Shown here piece after piece: positions 1 to 39,098 of a stretch of 52,902 nt of DNA (its first letter is position 1; each line of letters opens with the position of its first letter). The stretch is from an uncultured bacterium. GTDB lineage: Bacteria > Cyanobacteriota > Vampirovibrionia > Gastranaerophilales > Gastranaerophilaceae. The translations under genes and the position numbers were made by a program. Under the pieces are notes generated by a model. The model made no database searches. It saw nothing but the letters and a program-made list of their open reading frames with translations, and was not told where the DNA came from. The stretch covers positions 1-52,902 of the forward strand of contig CASDPF010000012.1 of NCBI GenBank assembly GCA_949282215.1, given 5' to 3'.

Positions 1-582
1 CAATCCAGCAGGAATAATTCCTTTAGGAGTAATATCAAAAATAAAAAAATCTTTTCCTAAAGTATATTGACCTTTTTTACCGTCAATATCAACTTTTATA
101 TTACCACAAGCTTGCCAAATAATATCATTTCCATCAACAGTTTCATTTCTAACGCAATCTGGAGATGAAAGCATAATCATTAAGGCAGTACCATCTGCAA
201 GAATAAATCGATACTCATCTGCATATGTATCATAATTAACATAATTACGTCCATCTAATGTCTTTACATATCCGGAAGTCAAGCACCCCTCTTCAAATCC
301 ACATTCTCTTAAAATTTTTAAATAAGGTTTGAGGTTATTAAAAAAAATTTCAGAATTAGTTGTCTTATCATTAGTAGTAAACCAATTTTCAATATCAGAG
401 TGTTCGTTTTTAGCAAGTCGATAAGCATTTTCCAGAGTTGAATGAACTTTTTTTAATTTTGCAACAGCTTCTTTTTCTCTTGTACTGGTGATTATAGCGG
501 GCATTGTCATCGCTGCTACTATTCCGATTATTCCTAATGTGATTAGCACTTCGGCTAAAGTGAATGCATTTTTCTTTTTCAT
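1..582 (-). CDS. Prepilin-like protein with N-terminal methylation motif (cut by left edge)
   Basis: Reading right to left from ATG at 582, the frame stays open for 194 codons to base 1, so the C-terminus is missing. The protein begins M-K-K-K-N-A-F-T-L-A-E-V-L-I-T-L-G-I-I-G, a class III/type IV prepilin signal: short basic leader, cleavage before the first hydrophobic residues, Glu at mature +5, then a hydrophobic helix. The rest is a polar globular domain with Cys pairs and, near the cut, a D-I-D-G-K-K-G-Q...G-K-D-F-F stretch matching the C-terminal motif of the other prepilins here. Family knowledge suggests a pilin or type II secretion pseudopilin in the inner membrane or periplasm; the exact role is unknown. 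ATG 582 has a strong GGAGG four bases upstream, and the frame is closed by TGA 21 bases further up. Confidence 0.9.
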   Translation of the reverse strand, partial: MKKKNAFTLAEVLITLGIIGIVAAMTMPAIITSTREKEAVAKLKKVHSTLENAYRLAKNEHSDIENWFTTNDKTTNSEIFFNNLKPYLKILRECGFEEGCLTSGYVKTLDGRNYVNYDTYADEYRFILADGTALMIMLSSPDCVRNETVDGNDIIWQACGNIKVDIDGKKGQYTLGKDFFIFDITPKGIIPAGL

Positions 583-586
583 AAGT

Positions 587-697
587 CCTCCGTTTATTTT
601 TCATTACCTGTTTTCAAAAATTTTGCATCACAAATCACCGTGTCTTTTGGCACGGCTTACTTTTCAGCTTTTTTCAAACCGGAGGTCTAAGTCGGAA
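587..697 (-). promoter_or_regulatory. Conserved structured leader of the left-edge prepilin gene
   Basis: On the minus strand this untranslated stretch holds, in order, TTCCGACTTAGACCTCC (697-681), a hairpin CCGTGCC-AAAA-GACACGG (655-638) and the Shine-Dalgarno ACGGAGG (593-587). The same three blocks occur in the same order upstream of the right-edge prepilin (52788-52902). CCTCCG at 685-680 is the exact complement of CGGAGG at 592-587, so the leader could mask its own ribosome binding site. The conservation is of bases, not of a protein: stops and frame differences separate the two copies. No known riboswitch family was recognised. Confidence 0.6.
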
Positions 698-713: not shown

Positions 714-764
714 TTAGTTGGTAGCCCCCCCCCCCGAAATTCTATCTATTAGCGTTTTTTGCAT
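714..764 (-). promoter_or_regulatory. Short leader ORF with an 11-G tract
   Basis: Minus-strand ATG at 764 follows a strong AAAGGAGG (776-769). It encodes M-Q-K-T-L-I-D-R-I-S-G-G-G-A-T-N and stops with TAA at 716-714. The glycines are encoded by an uninterrupted run of 11 G (C on the plus strand, 725-735), a classic slippage-prone tract. The same arrangement (strong SD, ATG, short peptide, G run, CT, stop) occurs at 38305-38355. In this copy a one-base change would extend the peptide but would not fuse it to the prepilin at 582, because stops intervene. Confidence 0.55.
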
Positions 765-783
765 ACATCCTCCTTTAAATTAA

Positions 784-37167: not shown

Positions 37168-37428
37168 TCACTCGTCACAAACAGAAAATTTTTCAGGCAA
37201 ATCTTTTTCGACTTCCTGCATAAATTGAGAAATTGACATCCCGAAAGCTGCAGAGAGTTTAAACAAAGTGGTAAGCTGAGGATCTTTCACACCTCTTTCA
37301 AGGTCACTTAATACAGAGGATGGAATATCGTATTCAGCACCGAGCATAAACTGACTCTTTTTTCCTCGCAAACGTTTGACAGTCTTTGCAATAGACTTAA
37401 AGATAATTTTCTTTTTTGTATCTTGCAT
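37168..37428 (-). CDS. XRE-family HTH regulator, divergent from a prepilin gene
   Basis: 86 residues from ATG 37428 (an in-frame TTG lies at 37455). Cro/C1 HTH: I-A-K-T-V-K-R-L-R-G-K-K-S-Q-F-M-L-G-A-E-Y-D-I-P-type helix 1-2 region, then S-S-V-L-S-D-L-E-R-G-V-K-D-P and L-F-K-L-S-A-A-F-G-M-S. No SD is evident. It faces the prepilin at 37511 across an 82-base gap holding an AATAAGC/GCTTATT inverted repeat (37447-37453, 37478-37484), the second case here of a small XRE gene beside a prepilin gene. Confidence 0.85.
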   Translation of the reverse strand: MQDTKKKIIFKSIAKTVKRLRGKKSQFMLGAEYDIPSSVLSDLERGVKDPQLTTLFKLSAAFGMSISQFMQEVEKDLPEKFSVCDE

Positions 37429-37510
37429 AATAACAATTTTGAATGTAATAAGCAATAAACCTATCGTGAACGCGAAAGCTTATTTAAAGAAAATTAAAGA
37501 TAATTTTTAT

Positions 37511-38191
37511 ATGAAAAATAAAGCATTCACGTTAGCTGAAGTCCTGATTACTTTAGGAATAATCGGCATAGTCGCAGCATTAACAATTCCTAATATCATA
37601 GCTGGATACAGAAAAAAAGTAGTAGAAACACGACTAGCAAAATTATATTCATCAATAAATCAAGCAATAAAAATGTCTGAAATAAAAAACGGAGACTGCA
37701 AATATTGGGAATGGGGTGATATAAATAATCATAGAGATTCGGTATTCATGGAACAATGGTGGAAAAAATATATGAATGATTATATGCCATTCATCATTTA
37801 TGCCAAAAGAGATTCCACCGAAAGTACATCCATAAGCGGGAACGGAGGATATAAGGTATTTTTTAAAGATGGCTCTGCTGTTAGAATAGAAGCAATACCA
37901 GGAACATATATATGGTTTATACTCTATCCTGAAGCCAAACTATCAGATTTTTCAAAAGGTATATTACAAAATACCAATGAAAAACCAGGAAAAAACTACT
38001 TCGGATTTTTTATTTTCCCTCAAAGAAAATGTCAAATCATTACTAACTATGAAAAAAAAGACCGATCAGAACTCCTAACACAATGCTTAAGTGACTATCA
38101 AGGCACAACATCCAGCATTGGGAGTCCCTGTGCAGAACTTATTATGCAAAATGGTTGGAAAATCCCTGACGATTATCCTATAAGATTTTAA
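37511..38191 (+). CDS. Prepilin-like protein
   Basis: 226 residues from ATG 37511 (M-K-N-K-A-F-T-L-A-E-V-L-I-T-L-G). A longer in-frame start at 37376 would prepend 45 unrelated residues and overlap the divergent regulator, so it is rejected. After the class III prepilin signal and hydrophobic helix comes a polar domain with several Cys near the end (C-S/C-Q-I, C-A-E-L-I-M-Q-N-G). It lacks the D-x-N-G-x-K-x-P-N motif of its paralogues and is the most divergent of the five. Downstream is the phase-variable-looking cassette of the next prepilin. Confidence 0.86.
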   Translation: MKNKAFTLAEVLITLGIIGIVAALTIPNIIAGYRKKVVETRLAKLYSSINQAIKMSEIKNGDCKYWEWGDINNHRDSVFMEQWWKKYMNDYMPFIIYAKRDSTESTSISGNGGYKVFFKDGSAVRIEAIPGTYIWFILYPEAKLSDFSKGILQNTNEKPGKNYFGFFIFPQRKCQIITNYEKKDRSELLTQCLSDYQGTTSSIGSPCAELIMQNGWKIPDDYPIRF

Positions 38192-38256: not shown

Positions 38257-38285
38257 TTGAAATTCTTAACGAAAAATGGTATTAT
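38257..38285 (+). promoter_or_regulatory. Promoter of the G-tract prepilin cassette
   Basis: TTGAAA (38257-38262), 17 bases, TATTAT (38280-38285), then AAAGGAGG six bases on (38292-38299). It matches the layout at 812-769 base for base in spacing. Confidence 0.78.
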
Positions 38286-38304
38286 TAATATAAAGGAGGA
38301 TAGT

Positions 38305-38355
38305 ATGAAAAAGTCAATTATAGCTTTAAATCTTAGATGGGTGGGGGGGGCTTAA
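38305..38355 (+). promoter_or_regulatory. Leader ORF with an 8-G tract, out of frame with the prepilin
   Basis: ATG 38305 follows AAAGGAGG by five bases and reads M-K-K-S-I-I-A-L-N-L-R-W-V-G-G-A, then TAA (38353-38355). The run of eight G is at 38343-38350. The prepilin frame (from 38337) is offset by two bases; one added G, or two lost, joins this well-initiated start to the prepilin without any stop. As written, the strong start is switched off from the prepilin: the picture of a contingency locus in its OFF state. Confidence 0.65.
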
Positions 38356-39098
38356 ATACAAGTAGGAAGCTCGTTTTAGACACTTACCACTATAAAAACC
38401 ACAATATTTTTACCGCTTTTTTCAAACCTATTTTGTTTAAAAATGATTTTTTATCTTTTCAAAAAGCATTCACGTTAGCCGAAGTCCTGATTACTTTAGG
38501 TATAATTGGTATAGTAGCAGCTATGACGTTACCAACACTTATTCAAAAACAACAACAGAAAATTCTATTTTCACAGTTTAAAAAAGTTTACTCAAACAAC
38601 CAAAATATTATTAACCAAATTTCTGCTGATTTTGGCGGGAATTTTGAATGCTATAATATAAAAAATGGAGAATATCACTGTAATGATTGTTTTCAATTTT
38701 GGGAAAACTTTTTTACAAAAATAAAATTTATAAAAAAATGTCCTGCAAATGATTACACATGTCGACCTAAATATAAAACAAAATCTGAAGTTCTGGCAGA
38801 AGGTGGAACTATAAAAAATACTTCTTGCGGAATGGATGTAAATACAGTTTATGATGGTTATATTACCTCTGATGGAACTATTTACTATATTGACAAACAT
38901 TATTATGCCACAGGTGCATATTCAAATTTTTTTGCAGTAGATATTAATGGCATCAAAGGACCTAACAAGTGGGGTTATGACTTATTTTATATGAATTTAC
39001 ACAAGAAAAATGAAAAATCTTCTGTAATCAATTTTGACAGTATTTGTTCTATGCAAGAAAAAGGCGGCTTCGAATTTAACGAAATTCTTCTGAAATAA
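38337..39098 (+). CDS. Prepilin-like protein behind a G-tract leader
   Basis: 253 residues in the open frame from ATG 38337; this ATG has no SD and begins inside the G-rich stretch, so the real start is probably ATG 38305 after a frame change. About 45 residues (M-G-G-G-G-L-N-T-S-R-K-L-V-L-D-T-Y) precede the prepilin signal Q-K-A-F-T-L-A-E-V-L-I-T-L-G, an unusually long leader. The mature domain is rich in Cys (C-Y-N-I, C-N-D-C-F, C-P, C-R, C-G, C-S) and has D-I-N-G-I-K-G-P-N-K-W-G-Y-D-L-F near the end. Role: pilin or pseudopilin by its N-terminus; expression may be switched. Confidence 0.8.
   Translation: MGGGGLNTSRKLVLDTYHYKNHNIFTAFFKPILFKNDFLSFQKAFTLAEVLITLGIIGIVAAMTLPTLIQKQQQKILFSQFKKVYSNNQNIINQISADFGGNFECYNIKNGEYHCNDCFQFWENFFTKIKFIKKCPANDYTCRPKYKTKSEVLAEGGTIKNTSCGMDVNTVYDGYITSDGTIYYIDKHYYATGAYSNFFAVDINGIKGPNKWGYDLFYMNLHKKNEKSSVINFDSICSMQEKGGFEFNEILLK

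Follow-up and report, generated by a model that had tools for sequence, protein, structure and literature searches.

The target locus lies on the plus strand of the window, the whole 52,902-nucleotide stretch of DNA analyzed here. It consists of a promoter-like site, a short leader open reading frame (ORF), an interrupted G tract and a prepilin reading frame that is offset from the leader. These elements span positions 38257–39098 and follow a neighboring prepilin gene that serves as a contrast case.

37376–38191, plus strand: neighboring prepilin (DUF6613 and N_methyl), without a G tract
38257–38285, plus strand: sigma-70-like promoter TTGAAA-17-TATTAT with an extended -10, a consensus match only (∼1.7 promoter-like sites are expected within the 300 bases scanned)
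38292–38299, plus strand: leader Shine-Dalgarno (SD) sequence AAAGGAGG, a motif that recurs at sister leaders
38305–38355, plus strand: leader ORF as assembled, with ATG at 38305 and 16 codons, reading MKKSIIALNLRWVGGA and then TAA (38353–38355)
38339–38350, plus strand: interrupted G tract GGGTGGGGGGGG, the unbroken part of which is G8 (38343–38350)
38351–39098, plus strand: prepilin frame AFTLAEVLITLGIIGIVAA, joined to the leader only at G9 or G6

The promoter, the SD sequence, the ATG, the G8 run, the stop after 16 codons and the prepilin offset had all been claimed in the initial annotation, and each was confirmed to the base. The interruption was absent from that annotation. In the single assembly from which the tract state is read, GGGTGGGGGGGG has the form G3-T-G8. 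The leader DNA is common to paralogous switches. The prepilin frame is reached by the gain of one G or the loss of two, and the gain of one G leaves the leader open into the prepilin. The prepilin matches the Pfam N_methyl profile (PF07963) above the cut-off and contains an N-terminal methylation motif with a G/A↓F-T-L-x-E cleavage site, at which cleavage is predicted between A and F (38468/38469). A start codon with an SD sequence near the prepilin motif was looked for, and none was found. As in a contingency locus, the homopolymer is located within the 5′ coding part and is longer than chance, and a length change of one unit joins the start to the gene. G8 yields five overlapping matches from two tracts in the whole window, compared with a mean of 0.09 in dinucleotide shuffles.

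A second switch of a different, leader-peptide design, likewise absent from the initial annotation, is found at the opposite end of the window on the minus strand (tract at 725–735, switch at 580–812), before another prepilin.

769–776, minus strand: leader SD sequence AAAGGAGG
714–764, minus strand: leader ORF, with ATG at 764–762 and default-frame stop TAA at 716–714
725–735 (735–725 in reading order), minus strand: G11 tract
679–686, minus strand: anti-SD ACCTCCGG, with predicted pairing to CGGAGG, the SD of the prepilin (592–587)
637–656, minus strand: conserved terminator-like hairpin GCCGTGCCAAAAGACACGGT, followed by GATTTGTGAT
1–582, minus strand: prepilin putatively gated by this switch, with its own SD and an ATG at 582 (position 1 is the edge of the window rather than necessarily the 3′ end of the gene)

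The two loci represent the two designs, classes B and A, to which the switches were assigned. In class B, which includes the target, the tract links the leader to the prepilin in a single fused gene. The joining segment is highly variable and includes apparent translated repeats, as would be expected if it were lost together with the prepilin leader peptide. In three fused prepilins (L119, L123 and L137), the N-terminal extensions resemble translated dispersed repeat DNA, which suggests that the segment is unconstrained. In class A, a short leader ORF is followed by a conserved element of ∼130 nt and then by a prepilin with its own GGAGG and ATG. The element contains an anti-SD, CCTCCG, 38 nt past the tract (at +38 in 81 copies) and a terminator-like hairpin with a weak U tract ∼72 nt past the tract. 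RNAalifold finds little covariation in class A because the anti-SD and SD hardly vary, and the predicted pairing thus rests on conservation and complementarity. The SD-sequestering pairing of the window copy has a z value of −1.48, which is not significant alone, and the class A loci have no match in Rfam. Some prepilins of class A find their best match in another species among class B genes (for example, L074 and L190), and the two designs therefore appear to serve the same purpose. One class A copy (L114; G000:C29:14816) has a deletion of ∼37 nt directly past a G10 tract that leaves the default frame open beyond the anti-SD, and is a possible constitutive variant.

The layout of the target recurs throughout the genome, which belongs to Candidatus Gastranaerophilales, a non-photosynthetic gut lineage of Cyanobacteria. 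The genome contains 92 tracts of G8 or longer. Among the 81 readable tracts of at least G9, 76 are found shortly downstream of a strong leader start and shortly ahead of a type IV prepilin motif, with 24–38 nt between the leader start and the tract in nearly all cases; script heuristics were used to call the leader starts and the classes. The tract length is G11 in 69 of 89 cases. A near-identical 5′ module precedes divergent coding sequences in many of the pilin paralogues. Of 59 related genomes, 26 have the same layout with genus-specific leader sequences, and almost all of these belong to the same family; matches to the reversed control pattern are rare across relatives. Two relatives (G005 and G008) have few prepilins and few or no tracts. 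The genome data cover the stretches around tracts in draft, metagenome-type assemblies, with one genome per species. In a scan of genome contigs, the nearest named carriers of the module are Candidatus Gastranaerophilales metagenome-assembled genomes (MAGs). The two MAG contigs returned correspond to genomes already in the set (L328 is from G007, and L329 is identical to the G003 element L249), so that a second strain of this species was not found. No syntenic orthologue of the target beside cysS was found among the relatives examined, and viral contigs scanned for the module and for the target gave no match.

The assembled tract lengths predominantly place the downstream genes out of frame. 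Across 18 genomes, only 12 of 129 fused genes are in frame as assembled (one third expected; binomial P = 2e-10, which is indicative only, as paralogues share descent and are not independent). Class A leaders are ON in four of 97 cases, all of which are G12 and come from G003. In genus g1, the assembled length of the fused genes is one base above the ON length in 49 of 64 genes; in G033, a genome of another genus, it is one base below in 40 of 46 genes. The default frame is closed shortly past the tract. In the +1 group of g1, the median distance from the tract to the stop is 5 nt, and 44 of 45 genes have the stop within 15 nt; the median is 8 nt in G033 and 26–30 nt for the third frame. When the synonymous codons of the productive frame are reshuffled, 26.6 stops are expected within 12 nt in g1 and 15.7 in G033, compared with 47 and 35 observed, respectively, and this excess indicates selection for the default-frame stop. 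All 83 class A copies at G11 have their default-frame stop 8–17 nt past the tract and before the anti-SD, and the +1 frame stays open beyond the anti-SD in 76 copies. Five copies with an anti-SD are exceptions; there, a different frame reads across it, and in three of these it continues into the prepilin frame.

Errors of sequencing or assembly could in principle produce such a pattern, with true tracts in frame and the G count an artefact, since long homopolymers are error-prone and the assemblies are metagenome-type drafts. This explanation is extremely improbable. The offset is +1 in g1, with agreement among three genomes, but −1 in G033; synonymous sites show selection for the default-frame stop; and the same G11 leaves class A OFF for another reason.

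The anatomy, the frames, the default-OFF bias and the conservation can be read directly from the assembled DNA, and the evidence supports a selected, default-OFF slippage switch. In the proposed mechanism, translation from the leader ATG would cross the tract and, at the usual length, terminate a few codons later. A length difference of a single base would put the ribosome into the productive frame. For class B, this frame would enter the prepilin, and cleavage of the prepilin leader peptide would also remove the additional N-terminal part. For class A, a longer leader would be read across the anti-SD and up to or into the hairpin, and this read-through would free the prepilin's own ribosome-binding site and/or block termination. 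DNA slipped-strand mispairing would turn on one of many pilins in rare cells. We assign a probability of roughly 60% to this reading, in which the G tract is a prepilin frame gate within a genome-wide, default-OFF repertoire and operates most likely through DNA slipped-strand mispairing. Tract lengths would differ between cells and alter expression, with DNA rather than RNA slippage as the probable main route.

Three observations point to the DNA route: some genomes carry in-frame alleles, the runs consist of G/C instead of A/T, and surface-glycan genes of a typically phase-variable kind (Stealth, RgpF and an FkbM-domain protein) share the layout. The in-frame alleles are L080, L151 (whose syntenic relative L149 is OFF), L273 (whose orthologues L083 and L251 are OFF) and the four G12 class A copies. 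In the alternative RNA route, programmed slippage of RNA polymerase or the ribosome on a fixed G10–G12 would yield a low, set expression level, and the DNA length would be stabilized by selection. Genes with programmed transcriptional slippage likewise contain a homopolymer run with a downstream frame offset by one, and the known bacterial cases are mostly on A/T runs. The RNA route would account for a tract length that is constant among orthologues and paralogues, for the conserved default-frame stops and for offsets that are kept despite a mutated tract edge. Such offsets are held in three fused orthologue pairs (L037/L267, L083/L251 and L084/L252); in the first, G12 is matched by AG11, with the edge substituted and the offset the same. 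The intact MutS1 also counts against a DNA-slippage switch and in favor of the RNA route. Loss of mismatch repair was considered as an explanation and rejected, given that MutS1 is present.

The RNA route nevertheless appears unlikely. Some genes are in frame at the DNA level, and classes A and B require opposite corrections at the same G11. In G033, six prepilin leaders (L211, L218, L232, L311, L324 and L327) have poly-C on the coding strand, and five of the six are OFF by one. These poly-C versions disfavor ribosomal slippage on Gly codons and make a Gly-codon or RNA-quadruplex explanation unlikely. The AT-rich genome uses G, although transcriptional slippage is considered likelier on A/T runs than on G/C runs, and in Neisseria the strong phase-variation candidates are mostly G/C tracts (PMC5084427). 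DNA slippage remains the preferred route, although one observation sits oddly with a freely switching locus: in all of the ∼18 class A orthologue pairs between two species, both members are G11. A mutational attractor near G11, combined with selection for OFF, would also fit.

The many pilin paralogues, in which a near-identical 5′ module meets divergent coding sequence, also recall Neisseria pilE/pilS, a large and mostly silent pilin repertoire with a G-rich element near the pilin gene. The tract could accordingly be viewed as a recombination or G-quadruplex signal for pilin gene conversion, with incidental frame effects. We consider this very improbable. It leaves the frame offset, the stop placement and the reading-frame logic unexplained, and the tract occurs at many copies, some with C on the coding strand, instead of at one expression site. 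In pilE/pilS, gene conversion feeds a single expression locus, whereas each copy here has its own promoter-leader-tract module.

For the target itself, the initial proposal that a G tract gates the prepilin by frame is strongly supported in its general form, both by the recurrence of the arrangement at ∼76 prepilin loci of the genome and in 26 of 59 related genomes and by the default-OFF frames, the conserved default-frame stops and the conserved tract purity. The support is weaker for this particular tract, which is shorter and interrupted and hence probably switches least readily of all members. As an example of the family the target is the weakest, and its tract is the shortest among the class B siblings of its genome. 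Given the interruption, the target may be a partly disabled copy, which has the family design and yet may be slow-switching or locked OFF.

In the stronger form of this idea, the T in GGGTGGGGGGGG stabilized a formerly longer tract, and the decayed gene is now rarely or never expressed. The G3-T-G8 form makes the target resemble a 12-base tract with one T substitution. Tract interruptions are very rare elsewhere, with ∼1 of ∼88 class A tracts of total length 11 being interrupted in a search that allowed nine free positions. A sister copy in the same genome is broken as GGGGGAGGGGG, and its orthologue in another species is G13. On the other hand, the prepilin ORF is unbroken for 253 codons, the promoter-like site, SD sequence and leader are also intact, and G8 tracts in other bacteria can still slip. 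A locked-OFF target is therefore a realistic possibility, but one we regard as somewhat doubtful. The broken sister copy is a class A locus beside gcvT (L333; G000:C13:102517). Its G13 orthologue is L328, and other 5′ modules are found beside gcvT elsewhere, so that a single locus appears to have differing switch states and designs. The comparison of the GGGGGAGGGGG copy with the G13 orthologue indicates that interrupted, probably stabilized copies occur.

The proposed class A mechanism has a close counterpart in the Pil1 pilus of Streptococcus gallolyticus, in which slipped GCAGA units extend a leader peptide so far that the translating ribosome disrupts a terminator; the short leader of the majority state ends upstream of the hairpin, and slippage by one unit shifts the end of the leader into the hairpin or close to it (PMC3894217; Danne et al. 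2014). In both systems, the repeat lies in a gene for a leader peptide that precedes the pilus genes, and the geometry is the same, as the default class A leader stops upstream of the structure and the shifted frame reads into it. Pil1 uses GCAGA pentanucleotides in one operon for sortase pili, with a demonstrated terminator, whereas class A uses G11 in dozens of copies per genome before type IV prepilins and has an extra conserved anti-SD. The target, as a class B switch, differs from Pil1 in having no attenuator: when it is ON, the leader and the prepilin form one frame without a separate start.

Class B resembles ordinary poly-G contingency genes. Contingency loci of Campylobacter, Helicobacter and Neisseria have a G/C homopolymer near the 5′ end of surface-structure genes, where one base toggles the frame. 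In contrast to those loci, one protein family here takes 76 of the 81 tracts of at least G9, nearly all genes are out of frame by one base and meet a selected stop just past the tract, and the lengths of orthologous tracts hardly vary. The family thus differs from known systems in its scale, its concentration on pilins, its selected off-by-one default and its two read-outs. No report of simple-sequence switching in this lineage (Gastranaerophilales/Melainabacteria/Vampirovibrionia) was found in the literature searched.

A broader proposal, for and against which we see even odds, is that Gastranaerophilaceae possess a family-wide regulon that holds, in each genome, tens of pilin genes one base out of frame as a selected default, by means of pure G (or C) tracts of fixed length and with two read-outs, fusion and a leader-peptide attenuator; one shared slippage process, at the DNA or even the RNA level, would select the few pilins that a cell displays. 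If the switch operates as proposed, one slipped G would activate one surface fiber out of a large silent repertoire of ∼80 pilin-type genes, and the set, with ∼76 members in one protein family, would be among the most concentrated homopolymer-switch sets known to us. It would help to explain the surface variation of uncultured gut symbionts, and tract counts in existing metagenomes would provide a direct read-out of the pilins that are ON. The findings raise the question of why the tract length is constant and off by one. They also bear on annotation, as gene callers will overlook or mis-start such pilins.

The combination of leader and G tract is also observed before genes other than prepilins. 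These encode Stealth (L083, L251 and L273), RgpF (L196 and L301) and FkbM-domain (L274) proteins, and the state of the Stealth gene is ON in one species and OFF in two others. Repeat-rich, surface-type proteins follow the same layout at L126 and L180. At L063 and L178, which share their gene context in two species, a G9–G11 tract is positioned within the coding region after ...GRQAIH and gives alternative C-terminal ends; this gene is possibly glycan-related.
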